From an uncultured Pelagibacteraceae bacterium (GTDB lineage: Bacteria > Pseudomonadota > Alphaproteobacteria > Pelagibacterales > Pelagibacteraceae), in assembly GCA_902567785.1 (NCBI GenBank), contig CACFOR010000001.1, forward strand, positions 1 to 64,000: a stretch of DNA of 64,000 nucleotides, in the 5' to 3' direction. The notes below the pieces were generated by a model. It made no database searches and was not told the DNA's origin. It worked only from the letters and a program-made list of their open reading frames with translations. The position numbers and the translations under genes were made by a program. Shown here piece after piece: positions 7,825-43,385 of the stretch (positions are counted from its first letter, which is position 1; each line of letters begins with the position of its first letter).

Positions 7825-8289
7825 TTATATCGGATATTTCTTTTTTAAAATCAGACGATTTAAGACAATTCCAAATACTATTATTATTATTGAACCAGTT
7901 ATTATAGGACTTATTAAGTAGTCTATTGAAACACTTCCTATAATTATAATTATAGGATTTCCACCAGCAGGGGGATGGGTAACTTTAAACAAGATCATTA
8001 AACTAACACCTAATCCAACTGCTAAAGGTATAGAAATAAAGGTAGGTATAGCAGTAAAAAATAAAAAAACTATTCCCACTCCGGAGGTTAACAAGTGACC
8101 AAAAAAAATATTTTTTGGTTGAGCAAACGGATTTTCTGGATAGCCATATAAAAGTACCATTGACGAACCAAAAGAAGCTATTAAAAAAACACCGAGTTCT
8201 GTTTTATAAGTTAAAAGAGTAAGTGCACCAATTGTGATTGCAGAAAACAAACCCGCTAGCAATGATTGGGTAAATTCTTTTTTATTCAT
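7825..8289 (-). CDS. HPP-family integral membrane protein
   Basis: A 154-residue protein made almost entirely of hydrophobic segments (about four or five), with the family-naming motif HPPAGGNPI near residue 105 and an internal FGSSMVLLYGYPENPFAQP motif. HPP-domain proteins are poorly characterised; homologues in cyanobacteria and chloroplasts have been linked to nitrite transport. The start overlaps the stop of the upstream IscU-like gene by 4 bp, so the two are translationally coupled. No nitrite-reduction gene is visible nearby, so the substrate is open. Confidence 0.8.
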   Translation of the reverse strand: MNKKEFTQSLLAGLFSAITIGALTLLTYKTELGVFLIASFGSSMVLLYGYPENPFAQPKNIFFGHLLTSGVGIVFLFFTAIPTFISIPLAVGLGVSLMILFKVTHPPAGGNPIIIIIGSVSIDYLISPIITGSIIIIVFGIVLNRLILKKKYPI

Positions 8290-22659: not shown

Positions 22660-25106
22660 ATAAATCCATACCCAAAAGTACAAAAGCTATCGTTATCGGT
22701 GGCGGCGTTGCTGGTTGCTCTACTGCTTATCATTTAGCAAAATTTGGATGGAAAGATGTTATTTTACTTGAAAGAGATCAGCTTACATCGGGTACAACTT
22801 GGCACGCAGCTGGATTGGTAAGTCAATTAGGACCTACGGCTGCTGTCACCAAAATAAGAAAATATACAACAGACTTATATAAAGAATTAGAAAAAAAAAT
22901 AGATTTTTCAGCAGGATTAAAATTAAATGGAGCTTTGTCCATAGCAACAACCAAAGGAAGATGGCAAGAACTACAAAGACAAGCAACTACAGCAAAATTG
23001 TTCGATGTTCATGTAGAAGTATTAAATATTGATCAAATAAAAAAAATTTATCCAATAATAAATGAAAAGGATATTTTGGGTGGTATTTTTATGCCTGGTG
23101 ATGGACAAGCTGATCCAATTGGGGTAACTAATTTATTGGCGAAAGCGGCAAAAGAATTAGGTGTTAAAATATTTGAAAAAAGTCCTGTTGAAAAAATTTT
23201 AGTTAAGAACGGAAGAGTATCTGGAGTTAAAGTCAACAATCAATTAATTGAATGTGAATATTTAGTTTTAGCAACTGGAATGTGGTCAAGACAAATAGGA
23301 GAAGAGATTGGTGTAAGTATACCTTTATATCCCGCAGAACATTTTTATATAATTACTGAACCAATTAAAGATTTGCCCAAAAAATTAGCTGTATTAAGAG
23401 ATTTTGATGATAGATTATATTTAAAAGAAGATGCAGGCAAATTACTAGTTGGGATTTTCGAGGGTAAATCAATACCAGCTTTTGAAAAAACAAATAAAGT
23501 TCCTAATAATTTTTCATTTGGTGAGTTTCCTGAAAATTTTGATCATTTTGAACCTTATTTAGAAGCGTCATTTAAACGAGTACCACTTTTAGAAAAAGCT
23601 GGTGTCAGAAAATTTTTTGCAGGACCAGAATCTTTTACACCAGATACAAATACACTTTTAGGAGAAGTTCCAGAAATTAAAAATTTTTTTGTCTGTTGTG
23701 GATTTAATAGCATTGGAATTGGAAGTGGAGGGGGAGCTGGAAAAGTAACTGCCGAATGGATGATGAATGGCCATATCAACGAAGATTTATTTATATATGA
23801 TATAAAAAGATTTCAAAAATTTCATTCAGAGATTAATTTTATTAAAGAAAGAATAACAGAGACTCTAGGTGATTTATATGGAATGCATTGGCCGTATAAA
23901 CAACACAAAACATCCAGAAATAAAAAATTATTTCCATATCACGACGAGCTAAAAAAAGCTGGAGCTTGCTTTGGAGCATCATCAGGTTATGAAAGACCGC
24001 TTTGGTTTGCTTTGAATGGTGAAAATCCAGAACTTAAATATAGTTATAATTACCAAAATTGGTATCCATCAGTAGAATTTGAAACAAAAAATGCGAGAAA
24101 AAATGTTGGTTTATTCGATTTAACTGCTTTTTCTAAATACGATTTAAAAGGAGGAAAAACTTATAGTGAATTGCAAAGAATTTGTACTGCTAATATTAAA
24201 AATGAAATTGGAAAAACATCTTATACTCAAATGTTAAATGAAGACGGTGGAATAGAAACAGATTTGACAGTTGTGTGTATGGGTAAAAATTATTTTAGGA
24301 TTGTTACTTCTGCAGCAAACAGAGAACATGATAAGTTTCATATATTAAAATATTTATCAAAAGAAGTAGAATTTAAAGATGTTACAGACGATGTTGCTTG
24401 CCTTGGAGTGTTTGGTCCTAAAAGCAGAAGTTTAATGTCAAAATTGTCAAATGATGATTTTTCAAATGAAAATTTTAAATTTGGCTCAAGTAAAGAAATT
24501 AAAATTAATAATAAAAAAATATGGGCACAGAGACTATCTTACGTAGGTGAACTAGGTTTTGAGCTTTATATAAAAATGAATGAAGCAAAAGAAATATATA
24601 ATTTAATTGTAGATAATGGAAAAGAGTTTAATCTTTCTCATTGCGGAATGTTTGCTATGGATACAATGAGAATGGAGAAAGGATATATGCACTGGGGACA
24701 TGATATGTCGCCTGAAGAAAATCAATATGAGGCAGGCTTGAAATTTGCAGTAAGTTTCAAAAAAAATATTGATTTTGTTGGAAAAAAAGCAATTGAACAA
24801 ATTAAAAATAAAAAAATAAAAAAAATGATGGTAATGTTGGCTTTAAAAAATAGTGAACCAGGAGCTCCATTGCTTCTTCATGATGAACCTATATATTGCG
24901 AAGATAAAATTGTTGGAAGAACTACCTCTGGAAACTATTCATTTAACTATAAGAAAAATATGTCATTTGGCTATATAAATTTGATTTTACCAATAGAAGA
25001 ATTAGCTAAGAAAACTTTCTTTATTGAAGTTGAAAAAAAGAAACATGAAGCATTTTTACAAATAGAAGCACTTCACGATCCAAAAAATGAAATAATAAAA
25101 AGTTAA
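22656..25106 (+). CDS. Dimethylglycine/sarcosine dehydrogenase-like flavoprotein
   Basis: An 816-residue paralogue of the 18085 gene with the same order: FAD-binding motif [16 protein letters not shown] near residue 13, [11 protein letters not shown] with the covalent-FAD His, FAO_M region, and a C-terminal GCV_T folate domain (about 430-816, with [12 protein letters not shown] and [18 protein letters not shown]). The LVSQLG context after WHAAG is closer to classical DMGDH/SarDH than the paralogue. It is coupled to the upstream transporter and 2 bp from the phosphatase-like gene downstream. Confidence 0.88.
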
Positions 25107-25108
25107 AT

Positions 25109-25915
25109 ATGAATAAAATTCAAAAAAAAGATAAAATAAATTATTATAATTTTTTAAATTCACTTCCAAAAAAAATAAACAGATTATATTTTGGCAAGCT
25201 AAAAGGAAAATTTAAAATAAACAATAAATCTAAAAAAAAAAATGGTTTTGATCCAGTAACGAATATTGACAAGGAGTTTGAGCTCTTTTTAAGAAGAGAA
25301 ATTTCAAAAAAATTTCCAGATGATGGAATAATCGGAGAAGAATTAAAAATTAAAAAAAGTAAAAGTGGTTTTACATGGGTAATAGACCCAATAGATGGAA
25401 CCAGATCATTTATAATAGGAAGTCCTACCTGGAGTAATTTAATAAGCGTTAGTTACAAAAATGTCCCAACTTTTGGTTTAGTGAATTTTCCTATGCTTAA
25501 AAAATATTACATCACAGGAAAAAGCAAGGTCAGCTATCTAGTGGAAGATAATAAATTTATAAAACTTAAAGTAGTAAAATCAAATTCACTTAAAAATTCA
25601 AAGATCGCAGGAAATTTTTTCGGATGGCTATCAGTAAATGAACAAAAAAAAGTTTCAAAATTAACAAAATTAATGAGATATCCATGTTCGGATGCTTTAA
25701 GTTATTGTCAGCTATCCGAAGGAAAATTGAATGCTGTTTTGCAATGCTATAATAAAATTTGGGATATACATCCTATGATATCTATTATTAGAAATTCAGG
25801 AGGATATATATCTACTTGGAAAAATAAAGACCCGAAGTTTGGAGGTAATATAGTGGCAAGCTCAAGCCTTCAATTACATAATAAAATTATAAAAATGCTT
25901 AAGCCAGTTGCATAA
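25109..25915 (+). CDS. Inositol-monophosphatase-family phosphatase
   Basis: A 268-residue protein of the Mg2+-dependent IMPase fold. Metal-binding motifs are GEE (about residue 75), DPIDGTRSF (about 94) and the late IWDIHPMISII where the third Asp sits. Members hydrolyse inositol phosphates, histidinol phosphate (HisN type) or adenosine 3',5'-bisphosphate. The GTRSF variant and the terminal PKFGG segment are often seen in HisN-like proteins, so histidinol-phosphatase is a reasonable alternative. The N-terminus is very Lys/Asn-rich. It starts 2 bp after the flavoprotein stop. Confidence 0.82.
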   Translation: MNKIQKKDKINYYNFLNSLPKKINRLYFGKLKGKFKINNKSKKKNGFDPVTNIDKEFELFLRREISKKFPDDGIIGEELKIKKSKSGFTWVIDPIDGTRSFIIGSPTWSNLISVSYKNVPTFGLVNFPMLKKYYITGKSKVSYLVEDNKFIKLKVVKSNSLKNSKIAGNFFGWLSVNEQKKVSKLTKLMRYPCSDALSYCQLSEGKLNAVLQCYNKIWDIHPMISIIRNSGGYISTWKNKDPKFGGNIVASSSLQLHNKIIKMLKPVA

Positions 25916-25942
25916 TATTAAATGCAAAATATAATCTATTAA

Positions 25943-26413
25943 ATGAATATAAATTTAAAAACAGAAAAAGTAATAAAAGAATGGACCGATTATAACGGTC
26001 ACCTAAATGTAGCTTTCTATGTGCATATATTTGATATTGCTGCAGATGTGATGTTAGATGGTTTTAATATGGGAGGTATATCTGCAAAAAAAAATAAAAA
26101 AACTACTTTTGTAGCGGAGATGCATACAATCTATAACCAAGAAGTTAGATTAGATGAAGAAGTTGAGACACAAGTAACATATATTGATCATGATAAAAAA
26201 AGAATCCATTATAGACTTTCTATGTTTCACAAAACAAAGAAATATCTTGCTGCAACAAATGAAGTATTGTCATTATATGTTGATCTTAATACAAGAAAAG
26301 TTACCGAGTTTGATCCAGATAGATTAGTTCTTATGGATGATTTTATAAAAAAATATTCATCTAAGTTTAATTCAGAAAAATTATTTTTCTTAAATAAATT
26401 AAAAAAAGTTTAA
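25943..26413 (+). CDS. Hotdog-fold acyl-CoA thioesterase
   Basis: A 156-residue 4HBT-type thioesterase. The signature EWTDYNGHLNVAFYVHIFD near the N-terminus holds the catalytic Asp, and FVAEMHTIYNQEVRLDEEV forms the central helix and strand. Close relatives occur in carnitine and betainyl-CoA gene sets, where they release glycine betaine from its CoA ester. In this methylated-glycine neighbourhood that activity is plausible, but general acyl-CoA thioesterase is the safe call. Confidence 0.8.
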   Translation: MNINLKTEKVIKEWTDYNGHLNVAFYVHIFDIAADVMLDGFNMGGISAKKNKKTTFVAEMHTIYNQEVRLDEEVETQVTYIDHDKKRIHYRLSMFHKTKKYLAATNEVLSLYVDLNTRKVTEFDPDRLVLMDDFIKKYSSKFNSEKLFFLNKLKKV

Positions 26414-26427
26414 ATGTTTGAAAATTA

Positions 26428-26709
26428 ATGAGTAAAGATATTAAAGAAAAAGATAAAGTAGTATCTCCTTGCATAAGCATTTGTAAAACAGATCCAAGGA
26501 CTGGATTTTGCTATGGTTGTGGAAGAACAGATGAAGAGAAAATGATTTGGAAAGAAGAAAAAACCTCAATTTTATGGAAGAAGGAAAACTTAAATTTACT
26601 CATGAAAAGAATGTCTGGTTGGCAACTAGAAACTTTTAAAGAATCCTACTCAAACAAAAAAAAGACTGGGTTGTCTCTATTTAAGCAAAACTCAGCAAAA
26701 GATAATTAA
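26428..26709 (+). CDS. DUF1289-family protein
   Basis: A 93-residue protein with the DUF1289 cysteine pattern: SPCISICKTD, then GFCYGCGRTDEE, giving four Cys that could bind zinc or an Fe-S cluster, followed by a Trp-rich helix (ILWKKENLNLLMKRM). The function of the family is unknown. It is the last gene of the plus-strand run that began at 18085 and converges on the small membrane protein gene at 26741. Confidence 0.83.
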   Translation: MSKDIKEKDKVVSPCISICKTDPRTGFCYGCGRTDEEKMIWKEEKTSILWKKENLNLLMKRMSGWQLETFKESYSNKKKTGLSLFKQNSAKDN

Positions 26710-26740
26710 ACTGAAAATCTTAAGAATTAAAATTTAAAAA

Positions 26741-26977
26741 CTATTTTAATAATTTTCTATAAGTAAATATTACAGCAAATACTATTATTAAAGCAGCTAT
26801 TCCAGATTCTCCAAGGCTGTTCAGTAATGCAACTAAATTTTTTGTAACTTGCGAACCTAAAAAAGCTACATCTGGACCAAATAGTATTTCAGCAAGAACC
26901 GAAACTCCTAATAAAAGAACGCCAAGCTCTATAAATTGTCTCAAATAATTTCTTATTTTTGTAATCCATGCATTCAT
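26741..26977 (-). CDS. Small membrane protein (78 residues), paralogue of the 27101 gene
   Basis: Two predicted membrane segments: one at about residues 15-33 (IELGVLLLGVSVLAEILFG) and one at about 56-72 (IAALIIVFAVIFTY), with a basic terminus at each end. It has a good AAAGGAG ribosome site. Its layout and the motifs FLGSQVTKNLVALLNSLGES and G-rich second helix match the 71-residue protein upstream (VSGIADNIVGLVQSLGDAG), so the pair probably arose by duplication. The function is unknown; holin-like or channel-like oligomers are conceivable. Confidence 0.7.
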   Translation of the reverse strand: MNAWITKIRNYLRQFIELGVLLLGVSVLAEILFGPDVAFLGSQVTKNLVALLNSLGESGIAALIIVFAVIFTYRKLLK

Positions 26978-27009
26978 AAATACTCCTTTAATTTCCTTAT
27001 TTAAACTTC

Positions 27010-27041
27010 CTATCCTAGCCCAAAACTCCGGGCTAGGATAG
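27010..27041. terminator. Strong 12-bp hairpin between the paired microprotein genes
   Basis: CTATCCTAGCCC (27010-27021) pairs perfectly with GGGCTAGGATAG (27030-27041) around an 8-base loop. On the plus strand a T-run follows a few bases later (from 27047); on the minus strand, where both flanking genes are read, only a weaker TTTAAA follows. It could terminate or attenuate transcription between the two small genes, stop plus-strand read-through, or stabilise the 3' end of the 27101 gene mRNA. Confidence 0.6.
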
Positions 27042-27054
27042 TCAGGTTTTTAAA

Positions 27055-27090
27055 CGTTAGTTAATTATTATTAAGAGGGAAAAACTAACG
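27055..27090 (-). terminator. Second hairpin downstream of the 71-residue gene
   Basis: CGTTAGTT (27055-27062) pairs with AACTAACG (27083-27090) with a 20-base AT-rich loop. On the minus strand it lies 10 bp after the stop codon of the 71-residue gene and is followed by TTTAAAAA. It is weaker than the neighbouring 12-bp hairpin; the two together form a tandem structure at the transcript end. Confidence 0.4.
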
Positions 27091-27100
27091 GGATAAAAAT

Positions 27101-27316
27101 CTATTTATAAAAACCTAAAATTATAATAGCTGCTATTAAGCCGACTATTCCTGCATCACCTAGTGATTGCACTAGTCCAACTATATTATCAGCTATTCCA
27201 CTTACGAATGGAACGTTTCCACCCAAAAGCGAAACAACGATACCTAAGCCAAGTAGTGATATAACTACATGTGTTAGGCTTCTTACTGTTCCTGAGAATC
27301 CTGCAAGCATTTTCAT
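27101..27316 (-). CDS. Small membrane protein (71 residues)
   Basis: Start chosen at the ATG 27316 because a strong GGGAGG site lies 8 bp upstream (minus strand); a GTG at 27325 would place the ribosome site inside the start. The product is hydrophobic with a helix at about 15-34 (VVISLLGLGIVVSLLGG) and another at about 55-71 (IVGLIAAIIILGFY), Gly-rich and nearly uncharged between them. It resembles the 26741 product in length, order of motifs and the SLGD/SLGE turn. Strong ribosome site, upstream palindrome and 3' hairpins suggest high, regulated expression. No function recognised. Confidence 0.7.
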   Translation of the reverse strand: MKMLAGFSGTVRSLTHVVISLLGLGIVVSLLGGNVPFVSGIADNIVGLVQSLGDAGIVGLIAAIIILGFYK

Positions 27317-27337
27317 ACTTAACACCTCCCTAAAGTT

Positions 27338-27353
27338 ACTTGTTTAAACAAGT
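27338..27353. promoter_or_regulatory. Perfect 16-bp palindrome upstream of the 71-residue gene
   Basis: ACTTGTTTAAACAAGT is exactly self-complementary and lies 22 bp upstream of the ATG at 27316, just before the ribosome site. A second shorter palindrome CTATCGATAG (27367-27376) follows. They sit in the longest gene-free stretch of the window (27317-27533, about 217 bp), which otherwise shows only AT-rich promoter-like sequence and no tRNA-like fold. An operator is the likeliest explanation. Confidence 0.4.
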
Positions 27354-27533
27354 GCTACCGAATCAACTATCGATAGCGTATGGGTCTTATTATCATACTA
27401 TATATAGATATCTAGGCAATTTTCATACAAAAAAGTGAGCAAAATAGGGGTTTTCTTAACTTTTCCACAGTAATATCTGACTATGGAATGGTAAATATAT
27501 AAAGAGTAAAGGATTAAGAGGACAGGTCAGTTA

Positions 27534-27851
27534 ATGAAAATTTACTTAATTTATTCGACATTTAAGAATTTTAAAGAGGCCAAAAGCATAGGCGGTGCTT
27601 TAGTTAAAAATAAGCTCGCGGCTTGCACTAATATTATTCCAACAATCTATTCGACTTATGTTTGGAAAAAGAAAACTATGGTGGATAAAGAATGCTCAAT
27701 GATTATAAAAACAACTGAATCAAAAGTAAAAAAAGCGATAAAATTTATTGTAAAAAAACATAGCTACGATTGCCCTGCAGTTACTGCTTTCCCAATTAAA
27801 TTTTCCCATAAAGATTTTAAAGACTGGATTATAGAAGAGACAAAAAGTTAG
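27534..27851 (+). CDS. cutA: CutA1-family divalent cation tolerance protein
   Basis: A 105-residue protein of the trimeric CutA fold, cytoplasmic, with IGGALVKNKLAACTNIIP near residue 20, the conserved STYVWKKK segment and HSYDCPAVTAFPI near residue 80. CutA1 is widespread and binds copper and other divalent ions, though its physiological role is unsettled. Length matches the family. It is followed 2 bp later by the YjbQ gene. Confidence 0.9.
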   Translation: MKIYLIYSTFKNFKEAKSIGGALVKNKLAACTNIIPTIYSTYVWKKKTMVDKECSMIIKTTESKVKKAIKFIVKKHSYDCPAVTAFPIKFSHKDFKDWIIEETKS

Positions 27852-27853
27852 TT

Positions 27854-28273
27854 ATGAAACAGATTTTTTCTGAAATTATTATGGAAACAAAAGGACAAGG
27901 ATTGTATAATTTTACAAACAAAACATTAAATTGGTTAAATAAACAAAAAATTAAAGATGGAATTTTGAATATTAATATATTACACACCAGTGCATCATTG
28001 GTAATACAAGAAAATGCAGACCCTGATGTTTTAATTGATTTAAAAAATTTCTTCGATAAATTGGCACCAATGGATAACAAACTTTATAAACATACTGTCG
28101 AAGGAAAAGACGATATGCCTGCACATATTAAATCTGCACTTACAAACAATCATTTAACTTTAAGTATAAAAAACAAAAAATTATTACTTGGAACATGGCA
28201 AGCATTGTACTTATTTGAGCACCGTTTAGAAAATCATACTAGAATTTTATCTCATCATTTGATTGGAAATTAG
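27854..28273 (+). CDS. YjbQ/UPF0047-family protein
   Basis: A 139-residue member of the YjbQ family, sometimes described as having secondary thiamine-phosphate synthase activity. Family motifs are LHTSASLVIQENADPDV, YKHTVEGKDDMPAHIKSAL and LLLGTWQALYLFEHR, with conserved His residues. It is cytoplasmic. It is tightly spaced between cutA and the aldehyde dehydrogenase gene (2-bp gaps), so the three form one operon. Confidence 0.88.
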   Translation: MKQIFSEIIMETKGQGLYNFTNKTLNWLNKQKIKDGILNINILHTSASLVIQENADPDVLIDLKNFFDKLAPMDNKLYKHTVEGKDDMPAHIKSALTNNHLTLSIKNKKLLLGTWQALYLFEHRLENHTRILSHHLIGN

Positions 28274-28275
28274 AA

Positions 28276-29718
28276 ATGTATAACAAATTTGGTCAATTTA
28301 TAGATGGAAAATGGCAACCCTCAAGTGATAAGGGTACTTATGATGTCATTAATCCTGCAACTGAGGAACTTATAGGTAAAGCTTCAAAAGCTACTCCTGC
28401 TGATGTAGAGAAAGCTTTAAAGTCTGCTGAAAAAGGGTTTAAAATTTGGAAAAAAACTTCACCATGGGAAAGGTCAAATTTAATAAAAAATATTTCAGAT
28501 TTAATTAGAAAAAAAAATAAAGATTTAGCTAAGTGGCTTACTTTAGAAGTAGGAAAACCTTTTAAAGAAGGATTGGGGGAAGTAGGTAGTGCCGCTGATA
28601 TTTTCGAATGGAATGCAGAAGAAACAAAAAGAATTTATGGACAAACTGTAGAAAGTAGATTCGAAAATACAAGAGTCCATGTGTATTATCAACCAGTTGG
28701 AGTTGTGGCAGCAATGGTGCCGTGGAATTTTCCAGTTATTTTAGCTGCAAGAAAAATTTCTACTGCATTAGCTGCGGGATGTTCAGTTATTTGTAAACCA
28801 GATATAATTACACCAGGTTGTGTAATGGAATTGGTTGATATTATAAAAGAAGCAGGTATTCCTTCTGGTGTGGTTAATCTTTTGTCAGGAGATCCGGCTT
28901 CTGTATCTTCTCAATTAATTTCTTCTAACATTGTAAAAAAAGTTTCCATCACTGGTTCCACAAGAGTAGGTAAACTTATTCTAAAACAAGCAGCTGAAAA
29001 AGTTCAAAGAGTTACAATGGAGCTAAGCGGTCATGCTCCATTCATAGTTTTTGAAGATGTAGATATAAAAAAAGTTGCAGATATGGCTATTGCGGCAAAA
29101 TTTAGAAATAATGGGCAGGTTTGTATATCTCCAAGCAGGTTTTATATTCATGAAAAGAAAAAGGAGGAGTTTACAAAATTATTTGTTGAAAAGACAAAAA
29201 AATTAAAAATTGGTAATGGTTTAGATGAAAGTGTCCAATTAGGCCCGATGACTACAAAAAAAAGACTAGATGAAGTTGAGGAACTTGTTGAAAAAACAAA
29301 ACAAGAGGGAGCACAAATACTTTGTGGAGGAAAAAGACCTTCGGGTTTTAATAAAGGGTATTTTTACGAACCTACTGTTTTTGACAATATAAAAGATAAT
29401 TTTACAATTATGAAACAGGAACCGTTTGGACCTTTAGTTCCAATCACTACATTTAAAGATTATGATGAAGTAATAAAAAGAGCCAACAATCATGAATTAG
29501 GTCTTGCTAGTTATATATACACAAATTCACTTGAGAAGGCACAAAAGGCATCTGAATTGATGGAAACAGGAGTGGTTGCTGTAAATACATCTATTGTGGC
29601 GGTAGCCGAAGCTCCTTTTGGAGGAATAAAACAAACAGGTTATGGTAGAGAAGGCGGATCGATGGGAATTAAGGATTACTTAAATATTAAATACACCCAT
29701 CTCGGATTAGATGTATAG
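28276..29718 (+). CDS. NAD(P)-dependent aldehyde dehydrogenase
   Basis: A 480-residue ALDH with complete catalytic apparatus: the nucleotide motif SITGSTRVGK near residue 225, the general-base Glu in TMELSGHAPFIVF, and the nucleophile Cys in NNGQVCISPSRFY. EPFGPLVPI and the terminal GREGGSMGIKDYL are typical of the succinate-semialdehyde-dehydrogenase-like branch. The preferred aldehyde is unknown; an intermediate of amine or betaine breakdown would suit the location. It converges on the gmaS-like gene with a one-base gap and no terminator between. Confidence 0.9.
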   Translation: MYNKFGQFIDGKWQPSSDKGTYDVINPATEELIGKASKATPADVEKALKSAEKGFKIWKKTSPWERSNLIKNISDLIRKKNKDLAKWLTLEVGKPFKEGLGEVGSAADIFEWNAEETKRIYGQTVESRFENTRVHVYYQPVGVVAAMVPWNFPVILAARKISTALAAGCSVICKPDIITPGCVMELVDIIKEAGIPSGVVNLLSGDPASVSSQLISSNIVKKVSITGSTRVGKLILKQAAEKVQRVTMELSGHAPFIVFEDVDIKKVADMAIAAKFRNNGQVCISPSRFYIHEKKKEEFTKLFVEKTKKLKIGNGLDESVQLGPMTTKKRLDEVEELVEKTKQEGAQILCGGKRPSGFNKGYFYEPTVFDNIKDNFTIMKQEPFGPLVPITTFKDYDEVIKRANNHELGLASYIYTNSLEKAQKASELMETGVVAVNTSIVAVAEAPFGGIKQTGYGREGGSMGIKDYLNIKYTHLGLDV

Positions 29719-29719
29719 A

Positions 29720-31045
29720 TTAACAATCTAAAGTATTAATCTTTTCCCATTCTGTTATCGGTTCTTTTTTTGAAAAAGTTTCTTTTGAATTAAAATCCTT
29801 TAATTCATTTTCTTTTAATTTTAAATAACTTGTAATATTTTTTTCTCCAAATGTAGAGATTAAGACTTCATTATTGCTTAGGTGTTCCAAGGCATTTTCC
29901 AAGTTGGTGGGAAGCTTTTTTAAATTTGGATAATTATCTCCATCAGTATACATATTTATATGTAATGGTTGACCTGGGTCACGTTTTTTTTCTATTCCAT
30001 CTATTCCTGCAGCTATAACTCCAGCTTGAAGAAGGTATGGATTAGCTGACCCGTCCATTAACCTTAGTTCAAAACGACCTGGATCGGGGATTCTAATCAT
30101 ATGAGTTCTATTATTGCCAGTATAAGAAATTTTGCTCGGTGACCAACTTGCTCCAGAAGTTGGTGCGGGAGCATCTATTCTTCTATAACTATTAATTGTA
30201 GGATTAAAAAAAGCACTCAATGCTTCCGCTGAGTGCAAAATTCCTCCCAAATAATTATAAGCTAATCGTGTAAGACCTAACTTATCACCTTTGTCTAAAA
30301 ATAAATTTTTTTTACCATCCCAAAGAGATATGTGTGCATGACAACCGTTTCCTGTCAAATTTTCAAAAGGTTTTGGCATAAAGGTTGCTCTTAAACCATG
30401 TTTTTCAGCAATTGTTTTAACCATAAATTTAAAAAATACATGACGGTCAGCAGTTGTAAGACTATCTGCGTAGTTCCAATTCATTTCAAATTGCCCATTA
30501 GCATCTTCATGATCATTTTGATAAGGACTCCAACCAAGGCTTAACATGGAATTACAAATTTCTTTTATTAAATCATATTGTCTCATAAGGGCAGACTGAT
30601 CATAACAAGGTTTTGGTTGTCTATCTCTACTATCTGCTATAGCTGTACCTTCCGGATTAATTAAAAAATATTCACATTCAACACCTGATTTCAAAGTCAT
30701 ATTATTATTAGACAATTTTTTAATTTGTTTTTTCAGCATTATCCTAGGAGAAGCATCAACAGGTTTACCATTCATCCATAAATCAGAGGCTAACCAACCA
30801 ACTTCCTTTTGCCAAGGTAGTTGAATTAGACTATCTGGATCTGGAATTGCAAACATATCTGCGTCAGCCGGAGTCATATCAAGCCACGTGGCAAATCCCG
30901 CAAATCCCGCCCCATTTTTTTGCATATCTTTGATGGCTTCAGCAGGTACTAATTTTGACCTCAAAACCCCAAAAAAATCTACAAAACTAATTAAAAAATA
31001 TTTAATTTTTTTTTGTTTTGCTATTTTTGATAAATCTTTTGCCAT
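29720..31045 (-). CDS. gmaS: Type III glutamine-synthetase-like ligase, probable gamma-glutamylmethylamide synthetase
   Basis: A 441-residue member of the glutamine synthetase superfamily. Its N-terminus (YFLISFVDFFGVLRSKLVPA, KNGAGFAGFATWLDMTP) is that of the type III ligase group to which the gamma-glutamylmethylamide synthetases (GMAS) of marine methylotrophs belong. Catalytic motifs are NDHEDANGQFEMNW, GNGCHAHISLW and the ATP/Glu site NRTHMIRIPDPGRFELR. It would join methylamine to glutamate at the expense of ATP, the entry to the N-methylglutamate pathway. Neighbouring Amt, tdm and tmm genes support this. True ammonia-assimilating activity is the alternative. Confidence 0.75.
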   Translation of the reverse strand: MAKDLSKIAKQKKIKYFLISFVDFFGVLRSKLVPAEAIKDMQKNGAGFAGFATWLDMTPADADMFAIPDPDSLIQLPWQKEVGWLASDLWMNGKPVDASPRIMLKKQIKKLSNNNMTLKSGVECEYFLINPEGTAIADSRDRQPKPCYDQSALMRQYDLIKEICNSMLSLGWSPYQNDHEDANGQFEMNWNYADSLTTADRHVFFKFMVKTIAEKHGLRATFMPKPFENLTGNGCHAHISLWDGKKNLFLDKGDKLGLTRLAYNYLGGILHSAEALSAFFNPTINSYRRIDAPAPTSGASWSPSKISYTGNNRTHMIRIPDPGRFELRLMDGSANPYLLQAGVIAAGIDGIEKKRDPGQPLHINMYTDGDNYPNLKKLPTNLENALEHLSNNEVLISTFGEKNITSYLKLKENELKDFNSKETFSKKEPITEWEKINTLDC

Positions 31046-31057
31046 AAAATTAATTAT

Positions 31058-31201
31058 TTATAATATTAAATCTTTATACAGGATTAATAAAACTAAAATA
31101 ATAAGAAATATAGCTATAAAAAGTCCATATTTAGCTTTTGGCCAAGCAAGTCTAGCCATTTTAGATGGAACTTTATTTTTATTATTATTGTTTTCTTCCA
31201 T
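31058..31201 (-). CDS. 47-residue single-pass membrane microprotein
   Basis: From ATG 31201 to TAA 31058 the frame encodes an Asn/Lys-rich head (MEENNNNKNK), a basic linker with SKMARLAWPKAKYG, and one 17-residue hydrophobic helix (LFIAIFLIILVLLILY) before a short tail. The positive-inside pattern predicts the N-terminus in the cytoplasm. It lies just after the amt operon terminator and 12 bp before the gmaS-like start, so it would be the first gene of that transcript. No Shine-Dalgarno sequence is seen. No known family recognised. Confidence 0.5.
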   Translation of the reverse strand: MEENNNNKNKVPSKMARLAWPKAKYGLFIAIFLIILVLLILYKDLIL

Positions 31202-31218
31202 ATTTTTAGAAATTTAAT

Positions 31219-31249
31219 AAAAAAAAGGGCGCTAAGCAAGTTAGCGCCC
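31219..31249 (-). terminator. Rho-independent terminator of the amt operon
   Basis: On the minus strand GGGCGCTAA pairs with TTAGCGCCC (plus-strand 31227-31235 and 31241-31249) around a 5-base loop and is followed by eight T residues (31219-31226). It lies 20 bp after the stop of the 80-residue gene and separates the amt unit from the gmaS-like unit, showing that they are transcribed separately. Confidence 0.9.
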
Positions 31250-31269
31250 AAATTTTTTAATATTTTATA

Positions 31270-31512
31270 TTACCACTCGGTAATATTCTTTTTATAGTCG
31301 TTTGTTCCAGGTCTTCTTCTAGCTAACTTTTGCTGTTCTTCAGATTCTCCAGTAGCTGTACCAACATGCCACCAAAGCCAAAAAACTACCGCAACCGTTA
31401 ACCACATCCACTCCTGGCCAACCGCAGGATAAATGTCAGCGACTTGTATTCCTTCAGTAGCTGCATCCACATCTGTTGTTAGATGTTTTATCCAATCTGT
31501 TACTTGTGCCAT
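31270..31512 (-). CDS. 80-residue membrane protein paired with the ammonium transporter
   Basis: The protein has an acidic N-terminal half (DWIKHLTTDVDAATEGIQVA), one Trp-rich membrane segment at about residues 33-50 (EWMWLTVAVVFWLWWHVG) and a polar, basic tail (KLARRRPGTNDYKK). I do not recognise the family. It begins 25 bp after amt and ends before a strong terminator, so it is co-transcribed with amt only. An accessory or regulatory subunit of Amt is an attractive idea because SAR11 lacks the usual GlnK partner, but there is no direct evidence. Confidence 0.65.
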   Translation of the reverse strand: MAQVTDWIKHLTTDVDAATEGIQVADIYPAVGQEWMWLTVAVVFWLWWHVGTATGESEEQQKLARRRPGTNDYKKNITEW

Positions 31513-31537
31513 AATTTATTCCTCCCTATCTACCTGT

Positions 31538-32926
31538 TTAACCGACTGCTCTTTCATCTTTTCTAGCCGATTCCATTATATTGTAGTCTAGTCCTGCTAG
31601 TTCTACTTCTCGCGGTATACGTAATTTACCCGCCCCATGAAGTATTTTAGCAAGGATGTATCCTGGTAAGAAACCAAGAACACCGAACATTATTATAGCT
31701 CCGATAAACATTCCAAGAGGATTGATTGGTGCATAATCTGTACCAACCCACATTGATCCTACACTGTATCCAGATGAAGGATATCCCCATAAAACGAAAC
31801 CGCATACAATAAGTCCGACAACACCAGCATAACCATGTACAGCTACTGCACCTACTGCATCATCTATTTTGAATCTACGTTCAACCCAGTAATGCATTTT
31901 GTAAGCAATATATGTACCAAGTGCAGCAATCATCATTGCTTGCAGTGGATGATATAAATCATTTCCTGCAGACGCTGTGATAATTCCTGCTAGTCCACCA
32001 GAGTAAGTCCAGAACGGATCTCCTTTAGAAACCCAATAACCAGCTAACAATCCTCCTGATAGTGACATCAAGAAGTTAAATGTAATACCACTCAGTGTTG
32101 TTGGTGTTACATAAATACTTGTTGCGGTAAAGAAAGTTACTCCTTCCATTCCATATTCTGGCCCTAGATCGAATATAGGTATATTACATGCAGCGTAGAA
32201 TCCCCAGAAGCCTGTATAAATTAAAAACAGACCTATTGCTACGAACCAAGGATTTCTTGGTCCAATATTTCTTGGTTCTCCACTAGATGAAAATTTTCCT
32301 ATACGCGGTCCTAAAACAGCCAAAACTCCTAATGCAAATCCTCCTGCTATGGCATGAATTACTCCCGATGCGTATGCGTCGTGATAACCTAGTAATTTAA
32401 GCATCCAACCATCAAAATGCCATCCCCAAGCAGCATCAATTGTCCAAAATACAGATCCAATTGCAATAGCTAAAATACCAAATGCAAAAGTTGTAATTCT
32501 TTCAATAATTGCGCCAGAAACGATTGATGCGGCAGTCCAAGAAAATAAAAGGAACGCAGCCCAAAATACTCCACTAATGTGGTCACCTAAATTAACCGCC
32601 ATTAAATTGCTAGTAGGTACGTACCATGATGCACTAAACAAACTGTCGTCTGTAATTAATGCTGCGCTTTCGTTCATAATTGAAGGCGCTAATCCTGGTC
32701 CTGTTGGAAATGCCCAATAAATCCACCAACCAAAGAAAAACCAAGTTACTGTTACCAGTGGTATCAGCATTGTGTTTTTCATTAGAGTATGTTGGTGATG
32801 TTTGTAACGTGATGCTCCAACTTCATACATACAAAATCCTACGTGAATCAAAAACATAAGTACTACAGTGATCCAATAGTAAAATTCTGTGAATATGGTA
32901 GTTAAAGCTCCCAATCCATCAGTCAT
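31538..32926 (-). CDS. amt: Amt-family ammonium (or methylammonium) transporter
   Basis: A 462-residue membrane protein with about 11 helices. The substrate path residues are recognisable: Asp and His in YHDAYASGVIHAIAGG and the second His in AVAVHGYAGVVGL, the twin-His arrangement of AmtB. The first helix is not preceded by a typical cleaved signal. The family takes up NH4+; methylammonium is a common surrogate, and the position beside gmaS, mgs-type and tdm genes makes methylamine uptake plausible. No glnK gene is adjacent. A strong AGGGAGG ribosome site precedes the ATG. Confidence 0.9.
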   Translation of the reverse strand: MTDGLGALTTIFTEFYYWITVVLMFLIHVGFCMYEVGASRYKHHQHTLMKNTMLIPLVTVTWFFFGWWIYWAFPTGPGLAPSIMNESAALITDDSLFSASWYVPTSNLMAVNLGDHISGVFWAAFLLFSWTAASIVSGAIIERITTFAFGILAIAIGSVFWTIDAAWGWHFDGWMLKLLGYHDAYASGVIHAIAGGFALGVLAVLGPRIGKFSSSGEPRNIGPRNPWFVAIGLFLIYTGFWGFYAACNIPIFDLGPEYGMEGVTFFTATSIYVTPTTLSGITFNFLMSLSGGLLAGYWVSKGDPFWTYSGGLAGIITASAGNDLYHPLQAMMIAALGTYIAYKMHYWVERRFKIDDAVGAVAVHGYAGVVGLIVCGFVLWGYPSSGYSVGSMWVGTDYAPINPLGMFIGAIIMFGVLGFLPGYILAKILHGAGKLRIPREVELAGLDYNIMESARKDERAVG

Positions 32927-32949
32927 ATTTTTTCCTCCCTCTTAATAAA

Positions 32950-32977
32950 ACTATAAATATTCTATGTTGTGCGACAA
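32950..32977 (-). promoter_or_regulatory. Predicted promoter and inverted repeat upstream of amt
   Basis: On the minus strand TTGTCG (32972-32977) and TATAGT (32950-32955) are 16 bp apart and lie 24-51 bp before the amt start. The -35 overlaps the symmetric element TTGT-N3-ACAA (plus 32967-32977) and a wider GTTGTGC/GTACAAC repeat (32966-32987). A factor bound there would block or replace -35 recognition, so the site is a candidate nitrogen-response operator. Confidence 0.45.
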
Positions 32978-33049
32978 GTAGTACAACAATCCAGAAGTGT
33001 TGCGTAAGAAGGTTTATTGAATTTTAAACAACCTAAGATTGTATTATTA

Positions 33050-33445
33050 TTAGAATTTTTTATAAGCTTTTTTTAAGTCCACCAGCGGATGGTTTGGTGA
33101 CATTTGAAATTTAATTAATAATTCCCTAGCAATCATATCTCTATCTTGCTGGCTATTAGGCAATTTAATTTTTTTAGGTATGGTAACCCATCCATTTGCG
33201 TTTCTGCAAAAAACAGCTGGGCGACCTTCTTCATAACCCATGTGAACATCTTCTAACCAATTTAAGTCATCCCAACCCATGTGCTCAATATACTTTTTAA
33301 GAAAAGGAGTTACTTTTTTATAATCTGGTAATAAATTTACATCATATCGATAACCTATATGTTGGCCTATCATTTTTTCTCTACTACTCTCTTTTTCTTT
33401 GGATTTAGATATTTTTTTTATTTTCTTATTTTTTTTCTTAGTCAT
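33050..33445 (-). CDS. Uncharacterised 131-residue protein following the mgsC/glxD-type gene
   Basis: A soluble protein with a strongly basic Lys/Ser-rich N-terminus (first 22 residues, no hydrophobic core) and a folded part with aromatic and acidic residues (YKKVTPFLKKYIEHMGWDD, EEGRPAVFCRNANGW). I do not recognise a named domain. It starts 8 bp after the FMN-binding synthase gene and so belongs to that operon. Its constant company with the synthase genes, if confirmed in other genomes, would suggest an assembly or regulatory role. Confidence 0.65.
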   Translation of the reverse strand: MTKKKNKKIKKISKSKEKESSREKMIGQHIGYRYDVNLLPDYKKVTPFLKKYIEHMGWDDLNWLEDVHMGYEEGRPAVFCRNANGWVTIPKKIKLPNSQQDRDMIARELLIKFQMSPNHPLVDLKKAYKKF

Positions 33446-33453
33446 ATTTTTTA

Positions 33454-34827
33454 TTAAATTTTATGGAAATCATCCACTCCAACAGTATGATTTGTTCCTG
33501 TTAACGGAACTTTAGCTAATGCTGAAGCTTCCATTGTTAAAGCAGCCAAATCTTCAGGTTCTAAAGAATGAACATTCGTTTTACCACAAGCACGAGCCAG
33601 CAATTGCAATTCTAAAGCCATTGTATGTAAGTAATTATAAACTCTTAATGCTGCATCATCAGGATTTAATCTTTTTCTTAATTTAGGATTTTGTGTTGCT
33701 ACACCAACCGGACAACGTCCTGTATGACAGTGATAACAATGCCCAGCTTTTACTCCCATTTCTTTTTCAAAATCAACTCCTGGGATTTCTTTATTACAAT
33801 TTAGTGCTATCATTGAGCCAGTCCCAATAGCAACGGCATCTGCCCCTAGTGCTAAAGCTTTTGCAAGATCAGCACCATCTCTAACTCCACCAGCATAAAT
33901 TAATGTTACCTTTCCAGTTTGCCCAACATCATCCAGTGCTCTACGTGCCTCACGTATTGCAGCTATACCTGGAATACCAGTATTTGCTGCAGCGATATGA
34001 GGTCCTGCACCAGTGGATCCTTCCATACCATCCAAATAAATTGAATCAGGATCACATTTTGCTGCCATACGAACATCGTCATAAACTTTAGCCGCTCCTA
34101 ATTTTAATTGTATTGGAACCTGATTATTAGTTAATTCTCTTAATTCTTGTACTTTTAAAGCAAGATCATCTGGTCCTAACCAATCAGGGTGTCTAGCCGG
34201 AGAACGTTGATCAATTCCAGATGGAAGAGAACGCATCTCAGCTACTTGGTCAGTAACTTTTTGACCCATTAAGTGACCACCCATTCCCACTTTTTGACCT
34301 TGGCCTATAAAAACTTCTATTCCGTCCGCTAATTGCGCATGGTGAGGATTAAATCCATATCGTGATTGTATACATTGGTAAAACCATTTTTCGGAATATC
34401 TTCTTTCATCTGGGATCATGCCACCTTCGCCTGAACATGTGGCACTTCCAGCCATAGTAGCCCCTCTAGCTAATGCAGTTTTAGCTTCATAAGAAAGAGC
34501 ACCAAAACTCATTCCTGTTATATAAACAGGGATATCTAATTCAATTGGATTTTTGCAACGCGGACCAATAATTGTTTTAGTTTCACATTTTTCTCTGTAA
34601 CCTTCGATAACAAATCTTGTAAGAGTACCTGGCAAAAATACTAAGTCATCAAATGTTGGTATTTTTCGCATTAAAGCCATACCACGCATTCTGTAACGAC
34701 CTAGTTGAGCTTTTATATGTATGTCGTCAATTACCTCAGGTGTAAAAATTGAATTTTGCCCTAATAAACTTTTATTTCTTCCCTTGGTAACTTTGAGACT
34801 CTCATTATTTTTTTTCTTTTTAGCCAT
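33454..34827 (-). CDS. mgsC: FMN-binding glutamate-synthase-like subunit (N-methylglutamate synthase type)
   Basis: A 457-residue TIM-barrel protein of the glutamate synthase central/FMN domain. Landmarks are PVYITGMSFGALSYEAK, SGEGGMIPDERRYS, the FMN-binding DGMEGSTGAGPHIA and IYAGGVRDGADLAKALALGADAVAIGTG, and the Fe-S cluster cysteines in CYHCHTGRCPVGVATQNP. With the two preceding genes it makes a three-protein version of glutamate synthase, as in MgsABC and the GlxBCD proteins. The predicted reaction moves methylamine or amide nitrogen to make N-methylglutamate. Exact substrate is inferred from the tdm/tmm context. Confidence 0.85.
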   Translation of the reverse strand: MAKKKKNNESLKVTKGRNKSLLGQNSIFTPEVIDDIHIKAQLGRYRMRGMALMRKIPTFDDLVFLPGTLTRFVIEGYREKCETKTIIGPRCKNPIELDIPVYITGMSFGALSYEAKTALARGATMAGSATCSGEGGMIPDERRYSEKWFYQCIQSRYGFNPHHAQLADGIEVFIGQGQKVGMGGHLMGQKVTDQVAEMRSLPSGIDQRSPARHPDWLGPDDLALKVQELRELTNNQVPIQLKLGAAKVYDDVRMAAKCDPDSIYLDGMEGSTGAGPHIAAANTGIPGIAAIREARRALDDVGQTGKVTLIYAGGVRDGADLAKALALGADAVAIGTGSMIALNCNKEIPGVDFEKEMGVKAGHCYHCHTGRCPVGVATQNPKLRKRLNPDDAALRVYNYLHTMALELQLLARACGKTNVHSLEPEDLAALTMEASALAKVPLTGTNHTVGVDDFHKI

Positions 34828-41982: not shown

Positions 41983-42921
41983 ATGAAAAAACTAATATCT
42001 CTTCTATCTGCAATAGTAATTTCTTTTGTTAGTTTCACAGGAATTGCTCTTTCAGCGGATAGTAAGAAACCCATTGTAATCCCGACACACAATTGGTCAA
42101 GCCAAGTTGTTATGGCTTACGTGATTGGTGGAATTTTTGAAGATATGGGAAACAATGTAGAATATGTCCCAGCTGACTCGCAAGCTGTTTACGAGTCAAT
42201 TCGTATTGGCGATGTAACTATATCGCACGAAGTTTGGGAATCTGCTTTTGGTAAATCATTTACTACAGCACTTGATAAAGGTGGTTTACTTGATTGGGGA
42301 GATCACGAAGCAAGAACTCTCGAAGATATGGGATATCCAAACTGGGTTGCTAAATTATGCCCAGGTCTTCCAGATTGGAATGCTTTAAAGAACAAAGATT
42401 GTGCTAAGAATTTTGTAACACCTGACTCAGGTGGAAAAGGACGAATGTTAGAAGGTCCGCAAACTTGGCACGGAGATTTAATTCCTCAAAGAATTGAAGC
42501 TTTAGGTCTAGGAGATCTTTGGACAGTTAAATTTGCTGGAAGTGCAGATGCGCTTTGGGCAGAATTAGCAGCAGCTAAAAAAGAAGGAAGAGGAACTATA
42601 ATATTCAACTGGACACCAAACTTTACAGATGGTGCTGGTTTTACATTTATAGACTTCCCTCCTTACACTGCTGGTTGTAGACCAGAAGATGGTGGAGACG
42701 GAAAATGCGGTTCACCAGATGGTTATTTGAAAAAGGCTGTAAATGCAGACTTTCCAAAAACTCATCCAAAAGCTGCAGCTATGTTCAAGAAGCTTTCATT
42801 TTCAACAGGTCAAATTGGTGCAATGGCAGCTTTAGTTGACATTGACAAAATGACTCACGAAGATGCAGCTAAAAAATGGCTAAAAGACAACAAAAAAGTT
42901 TGGAAAAAGTTTACAAAATAA
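41983..42921 (+). CDS. tmoX: TMAO ABC transporter, substrate-binding protein
   Basis: A 312-residue periplasmic OpuAC-type binding protein. The ATG at 41983 has a GGGGGA ribosome site and starts a clear signal peptide (MKKLISLLSAIVISF through ALSA). The mature part is Trp/aromatic-rich (THNWSSQV, EVWESAFGK, IIFNWTPNF), as needed for a cation-pi box holding a trimethylated nitrogen. It is divergent from tdm and upstream of the ATPase and permease genes. SAR11 members of this family bind several osmolytes, so glycine betaine or choline may also be ligands. Confidence 0.9.
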   Translation: MKKLISLLSAIVISFVSFTGIALSADSKKPIVIPTHNWSSQVVMAYVIGGIFEDMGNNVEYVPADSQAVYESIRIGDVTISHEVWESAFGKSFTTALDKGGLLDWGDHEARTLEDMGYPNWVAKLCPGLPDWNALKNKDCAKNFVTPDSGGKGRMLEGPQTWHGDLIPQRIEALGLGDLWTVKFAGSADALWAELAAAKKEGRGTIIFNWTPNFTDGAGFTFIDFPPYTAGCRPEDGGDGKCGSPDGYLKKAVNADFPKTHPKAAAMFKKLSFSTGQIGAMAALVDIDKMTHEDAAKKWLKDNKKVWKKFTK

Positions 42922-42948
42922 ACATTAGTAAAACTTAAGCTTTTGATA

Positions 42949-42985
42949 ATCTCTCCCGATATTATGTCGGGAGAGATTTTTTTTT
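42949..42985 (+). terminator. Rho-independent terminator after tmoX
   Basis: ATCTCTCCCGA (42949-42959) pairs perfectly with TCGGGAGAGAT (42967-42977) around a 7-base loop, and nine T residues follow. It lies 28 bp after the tmoX stop. It would let the binding protein be made in excess over the ATPase and permease, a usual arrangement for ABC importers. Confidence 0.93.
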
Positions 42986-43010: not shown

Positions 43011-43385
43011 ATGAAAAAATATATATTTTATATAATTTTAGGTTTTTTAATTACGACTTCAGCATCAGCTCGAAAGACAGGTTGTGAAGGAAATTGTGTA
43101 GATGGTTTTGGTAAATGGACTTATACAGACAAAACAACTTATGAAGGGAATTGGGTTGGCACAAAAAAAAATGGACAAGGAACTGAAATTTGGCCCAATG
43201 GATATATTTATAAGGGAGAATTTAAAAATAGTGAGTGGAGTGGAAAAGGAATTTTAACTTTTCCAGATGGTTCAACTTACGAAGGAGAATGGGCCAATGG
43301 TTTCATGAATGGTGAAGGAAAGTTTACTTGGTCTGATGGAAAAGAGATATCAGGCACTTGGGTAAATGGAAAATTAAAGGAATAA
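43011..43385 (+). CDS. Exported MORN-repeat protein
   Basis: A 124-residue protein with an N-terminal signal (MKKYIFYIILGFLITTSASA) and four MORN-type repeats built on the pattern Y-x-G-x-W/F plus NG-x-G-x-G-x-(F/W), for example TTYEGNWVGTKKNGQGTEIW and STYEGEWANGFMNGEGKFTW. Two Cys follow the signal. MORN repeats mediate protein or lipid contacts. It is inserted between tmoX and the rest of the transporter genes, after the terminator; its link with TMAO uptake is unknown. Confidence 0.8.
   Translation: MKKYIFYIILGFLITTSASARKTGCEGNCVDGFGKWTYTDKTTYEGNWVGTKKNGQGTEIWPNGYIYKGEFKNSEWSGKGILTFPDGSTYEGEWANGFMNGEGKFTWSDGKEISGTWVNGKLKE

Follow-up and report, generated by a model that had tools for sequence, protein, structure and literature searches.

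Intercistronic stem-loops combined with differential decay have been described for operons including pufBALMX (available text of PMC5927463), and puf operon hairpins are also covered in the accessible part of PMC7509114. Candidate structured RNAs of 'Cand. Pelagibacter ubique' are conserved in SAR11 intergenic regions (PMC2704228); a term search of that paper's accessible text found none of the motifs tied to a small membrane-protein pair. Here we describe a SAR11 operon of two small putative membrane-protein genes, A and B, in which, as in puf-type operons, a conserved RNA stem-loop lies between the cistrons.

The operon is located in a 64 kb stretch of DNA (the window, i.e., the whole stretch that was analysed) from source genome G000 (819,593 bases, 13 contigs, 62.9% complete). 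Its gene content and AT-richness, and a genome size of about 1.2 Mb in its order, point to SAR11 (Pelagibacterales). We refer to the SAR11 family of the window as f1 and to its sister SAR11 family as f2. The locus has the following features:

26741..26977, minus strand: gene B, 78-residue paralogue of A
26983..26989, minus strand: Shine-Dalgarno sequence AAAGGAG of gene B, outside H2 (from sequence)
27010..27041, minus strand: strong intercistronic hairpin H2 between A and B, perfect 12-bp stem 27010-27021/27030-27041
27055..27090, minus strand: weak intergenic hairpin H1 with C-rich UCCCUC loop (covariation in the genus)
27101..27316, minus strand: gene A, 71-residue putative helical-hairpin membrane protein, ATG at 27316
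27325..27330, minus strand: strong Shine-Dalgarno sequence GGGAGG of gene A (from sequence; retained in 17 genus leaders)
27338..27353, minus strand: P2, 16-bp palindrome, possible 6-bp RNA hairpin or DNA site (conserved in the genus)
27354..27377, minus strand: leader hairpin P1, 8 bp, near-invariant UGAUUCG on the 3' side (covariation)
27392..27419, minus strand: promoter-like TTGCCT-16-TATGAT (weak; at chance frequency)

The hairpins, the palindromes, the GGGAGG site and the two membrane proteins listed in the initial annotation are all present in the sequence. The gene-free stretch upstream of A (27326-27533, 208 bp) is, as had been claimed, the longest in the window, with a runner-up of 133 bp. 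Gene A has an alternative GTG start 9 nt upstream of its ATG that would give 74 residues. Promoter-like sites were found three times, compared with 3.9 expected. In the window (27534-28273) CutA adjoins the pair. Six congeners (L314, L316, L317, L322, L324 and L325) have a YjbQ-like gene near the pair, and CutA was found in L325 only.

Homology and predicted fold of A and B

A and B matched each other both in sequence (E 2.3e-5) and in profile-profile comparison (probability 97.4, E 1.2e-11, 68 columns). The common layout that had been noticed for the two proteins is thus borne out as homology, and by these matches A and B are paralogues in one two-TM membrane family. AlphaFold models had a pLDDT of 89.5 for B (helices 2–33, 44–58 and 60–77) and 86.2 for A (helices 2–30, 39–54 and 57–70), with pTM values of only 0.57 and 0.51 for the two models. 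In both predictions a long helix at the N-terminus is followed, after a short loop, by an amphipathic helix and then by the membrane helix of the C-terminus.

We aligned 84 family members from cells and viral contigs. Columns conserved to at least 95% were, in B numbering and by majority letter, G34, F39, L55, G56, G59, G62 and L63, and position 30 was Q or E in 83% of members. The C-terminus was net positive in 79 and the N-terminus in 58 of the 84 members, and the loop had zero or negative net charge in 78. Positive charge marks the cytoplasmic side of membrane proteins (positive-inside rule), so this pattern would place both termini in the cytoplasm. An N-in/C-in membrane hairpin is therefore the best reading of the charges for A and B, and these hairpins are probably oligomeric. 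In seven congeners dN/dS was 0.021/0.413 (about 0.05) for A and 0.080/0.93 (about 0.09) for B, i.e., purifying selection acts on both.

Profile searches gave no Pfam, NCBIfam or PHROG match for A and B. When all 84 members were compared with protein-family libraries, matches were scattered and weak and none was significant; the best were to TrbL (E 0.00047, 4 members) and PRK13852 (E 0.00049, 9 members), followed by phrog_3087 (best E 0.001, 9 of 84 members). Among the holin families no profile was matched significantly, Phage_holin_2_3 being touched by a single member (best E 0.045). Neither the family profile searched against PDB sequences (best E 0.29) nor the B model searched with Foldseek against PDB and BFVD yielded a match. 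We found no description of the family in open-licence PubMed Central papers, and it is apparently undescribed.

RNA structure of the leader and the intergenic region

Perfect stems of at least 12 bp with loops of 3–10 nt occur three times in 64 kb, compared with 0.15 per shuffle, which upholds the initial description of the 12-bp hairpin as strong. A second perfect 12-bp GC-rich hairpin of the window (42948-42978) is flanked by a substrate-binding-protein-like ORF, which ends at 42921, and by a 124-residue ORF at 43011. In SAR11, all 40 of 40 A/B pairs have a hairpin between the genes (z −3.3 to −9.0), and the stem is uninterrupted over at least 11 bp in 39 of them. Included in the 40 is L003, for which the ungapped finder gave 7 bp owing to a bulge and which folds into a long interrupted stem. 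The set omits L013 and L028, where the fetched stretch held no complete second gene; L333 and L339, in which a second gene was not found, were likewise left out of the intergenic counts.

The stem arms occur in 17 distinct sequences, which pair to 100% with their own partners versus 61% across arm types. Within the genus (16 intergenic sequences), 98.4% of H2 cells are paired, with compensatory changes at 8 of 12 pairs; for H1 the values are 94.6–100% and a double change at 2 of 8 pairs, and kinship among the sequences inflates such covariation counts. The intergenic covariation score (0.260 versus 0.159) was reached by none of 500 shuffles, and the same held for the score of the leader. Sliding either structure along the alignment abolished covariation. 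Judged by its pairing, H2 is an RNA element with lineage-specific sequence. Rfam had no match at the operon and two sub-threshold matches elsewhere in 24000-33500. The H1 loop carries a C-rich, anti-Shine-Dalgarno-like motif (e.g., UCCCUC, CCUCCC). No more than 55 nt from the A stop codon, such a motif was seen in 26 of 32 f1 loci (L307-L338), whose sequences are related to one another, compared with 8% of composition shuffles.

In the leader, P1 was paired in 99.3% of cells in 17 congeners, with both-side changes at 3 of 8 pairs. It encloses a 10-bp palindrome (27367-27376) that is not conserved as a palindrome; this second short palindrome, initially taken as operator-like, is instead part of a covarying RNA hairpin. 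A leader covariance model found one match per genome, at the A/B operon, in 17 of 23 congeners, and in a few f1 genera beyond this one it likewise hit the A/B pair (best E 5.1e-6). We rejected the idea that the leader motif regulates several genes, since a second strong copy was not found and the next match had an E of 0.176.

P2 was paired in 92.2% of cells in the same 17 leaders, without double changes. Perfect palindromes of at least 16 bp occur eight times in the window (2.0 per shuffle), so P2 is statistically ordinary as a raw feature, and its designation as an unusual operator had to be dropped. One further palindrome, at 7936-7957, is perfect over 22 bp. We consider it quite improbable that the palindromes are DNA operators binding a repressor dimer, with the hairpins incidental: P2 is largely conserved in the congeners without compensatory change, as this would demand, but it is one among many of its length or longer, and P1 and H2 vary in sequence yet keep their pairing, unlike a DNA site. 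Of the dense regulation initially proposed, the conserved RNA structure in P1 and H2 thus stands, and the operator reading is not supported. H2 might otherwise be a plain transcription terminator for A, with B expressed from its own promoter. One f1 lineage (L004/L313) indeed has a U7 tail, and H2 of the window was called terminator-like on the plus strand. However, it was called on that strand only, and since the coding strand has no U-tract in most lineages, termination is not the general rule. Moreover, A and B are only 50–123 nt apart, a spacing mostly filled by the hairpin in f2. A plain terminator is therefore improbable.

Occurrence in bacteria and in viral contigs

Profile searches found the A/B pair in 39 of 53 f2 genomes (11 of the 12 near-complete ones) and in 34 of 297 f1 genomes (4 of 127 near-complete ones), where it is concentrated in the genus of the window (17 of 23 genomes). 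The initial annotation had named a lack of homologues in related genomes as a reason to abandon its proposal, and the counts for the genus and for f2 remove this objection. With A as query, 49 of 197 genomes drawn from the order matched at E <= 0.1; for seven of them a single match with E 0.01 to 0.1 is probably due to chance. In a class sample 42 of 385 genomes matched, two of them weakly (E 0.003–0.005), and in a phylum-wide draw of 398 genomes G000 itself was the sole match. Titled genomes held at least 136 relatives. Among the matches listed, 80 loci came by record title from Alphaproteobacteria, Planctomycetota, Nitrospinota, Nitrospirota, Gammaproteobacteria and others; as most of them are MAGs, an isolated odd phylum may reflect a binning error.

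SAR11 A and SAR11 B form separate clades (support 99/98 and 100/100) in a tree built on only 78 columns and with 31 of its 98 inner branches open, and each clade contains both f1 and f2. The duplication hence predates the f1/f2 split, and the pair would have been lost, or never assembled, in most of f1. The A/B pair is old in SAR11, and its mRNA has covarying hairpins in two places, the leader and the A-B intergenic region. Outside SAR11, only 5 of 20 pairs reached an intergenic z at or below −2.5, and in tandem pairs of the Reyranella/Rhodospirillales type the intergenic region is short and unstructured. The intercistronic hairpin is therefore not required for the family. Conserved neighbour genes that cross lineages were not found in the cellular loci.

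Relatives were also present in viral contigs: four with A as query, and 5, 205 and at least 445 in other searches, these sets overlapping. We analysed 168 viral loci, among which a few contigs recur (e.g., L032/L040 and L034/L044) and at least one locus, L228, looks cellular or prophage-like by its neighbours. Two copies were found in none of these, compared with 17 of the 80 titled-genome loci among the matches listed. Hallmark genes place family members in a true phage context in several lineages. In L032 the family gene is flanked by a gp21-type protease (phrog_207, E 4.5e-57) and by a scaffold-like ORF that comes ahead of gp23; in L059 and L258/L266 it is followed by a terminase-like gene and then a portal gene; and in L237 it is near gp32. 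A member of a ribonucleotide-reductase cluster is found up to three genes upstream in 69 of 168 loci (43 adjacent, 25 in second and 1 in third place), and a terminase cluster member is the next gene downstream in 27 and the second in one. These neighbour clusters were profile-tested through representatives only, for terminase with one member of each of two clusters (Pfam). In 15 viral loci a further gene cluster neighbours the family member (12 at −1, 3 at −2); its L269 member, with a DUF1353 protein alongside, matched GTA_holin_3TM weakly (E 3.7e-4, under the cut-off), and its L258 member had no holin match. Two viral contigs carry glutamine synthetase and periplasmic-binding-protein (PstS-like) genes near the family member (L216:1973-3007, L248:5448-6308).

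A tblastn search of A, P0001 and P0002 against named phage records gave no match with the low-complexity filter on; as this filter may hide hydrophobic queries, the result does not establish absence from named phages. Inspected by eye as translations, three small ORFs near gp21-gp22 in a Flavobacterium phage are not family members. In P-SSM4 and Cr30 the gp21-gp22 interval contains no annotated gene.

Two explanations start from the phage copies. They might be auxiliary or host-takeover genes of bacterial origin, i.e., a repeatedly acquired microprotein that shapes membranes or modulates transporters. In the tree the copies are scattered over several places between cellular sequences, and they adjoin genes for ribonucleotide reductase, ThyX, glutamine synthetase and PstS-like and, by eye, Hsp20-like proteins. 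Against this stand the limited tree support, the terminase neighbourhood in 28 loci, which fits a late gene, and the missing partner gene across cellular lineages; we regard this origin as unlikely. Alternatively, the family might be holin-like pores, used by phages in lysis or its timing and domesticated in bacteria as a pore/antipore pair with a ratio fixed by the RNA hairpin. By hydropathy and in the models, A and B have the small size and the one to three TM helices of holins, and two-TM size with a paired paralogue suits holin/antiholin logic. The terminase-like gene downstream and the holin-like neighbour cluster make a lysis role possible. However, with a holin-like gene next to it, the family member need not be a holin itself, and that cluster matched in one representative and not in the other. 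Also, contact with a holin model was limited to one of the 84 members, and the largest phage group lies near ribonucleotide reductase, others near ThyX/gp32 or in gp21-gp22. A holin-like family is thus unlikely.

Proposed working of the operon and comparison with known systems

We consider it rather probable that A and B form a two-gene operon of inner-membrane paralogues in which the leader and the intercistronic stem-loop set the output of A relative to B, and that both proteins co-assemble. The 263 of 297 f1 genomes without the pair count against this proposal. The conserved mRNA hairpins probably set the amount of each protein. The leader hairpin and the strong ribosome site would provide a stable, well-translated message, and the C-rich H1 loop could pair with this site. 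The intercistronic stem-loop would then set the A:B ratio, most likely with A in excess, either because it shields the A segment at its 3' end, because transcription partly terminates there in some lineages, or because it couples translation of the two genes. In f2 the hairpin begins 5 to 12 nt past the A stop codon and could be opened by the terminating ribosome, and translational coupling is hence equally possible there. In the membrane, A as bulk subunit and B as minor partner would assemble through their glycine-rich second helices into a pore or scaffold. Whether holin-like pore or other, a function for A/B is something we can only infer. A common pore or membrane-gating module shared by free-living bacteria and several unrelated lineages of marine phage, used as a single copy by phages for lysis or takeover and in bacteria such as SAR11 as a tandem pair of RNA-fixed ratio with one paralogue restraining the other, appears decidedly unlikely.

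The main new point is the protein family itself. Viral contigs carry it by the hundred, genome titles place it in several bacterial phyla, and the libraries searched do not contain it, which marks a blind spot of marine genomics. Its SAR11 version combines conserved RNA hairpins with two tiny genes in a streamlined genome. With this pair one can cleanly test how RNA sets the stoichiometry of small membrane proteins, and ask what a single copy brings to phages.

Pairs of the TatA/TatB type consist of two small membrane paralogues present in unequal amounts, with a topology that differs from that of A/B; the family libraries, and Foldseek with the B model, gave no sequence or fold match linking them to A/B. 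Like phage holins (GTA_holin_3TM, Phage_holin_2_3), A and B are tiny membrane proteins, and some phage copies adjoin holin-like and terminase genes. Unlike holins, the family combines an amphipathic helix with two membrane helices, and a chromosomal tandem pair is conserved in bacteria. The proteins of the Rhodobacter puf operon (pufBA/pufLMX) belong to a family unrelated to A/B. The likeness between the two operons rests on RNA structure: in both, small membrane-protein genes are separated by a strong stem-loop between the cistrons.
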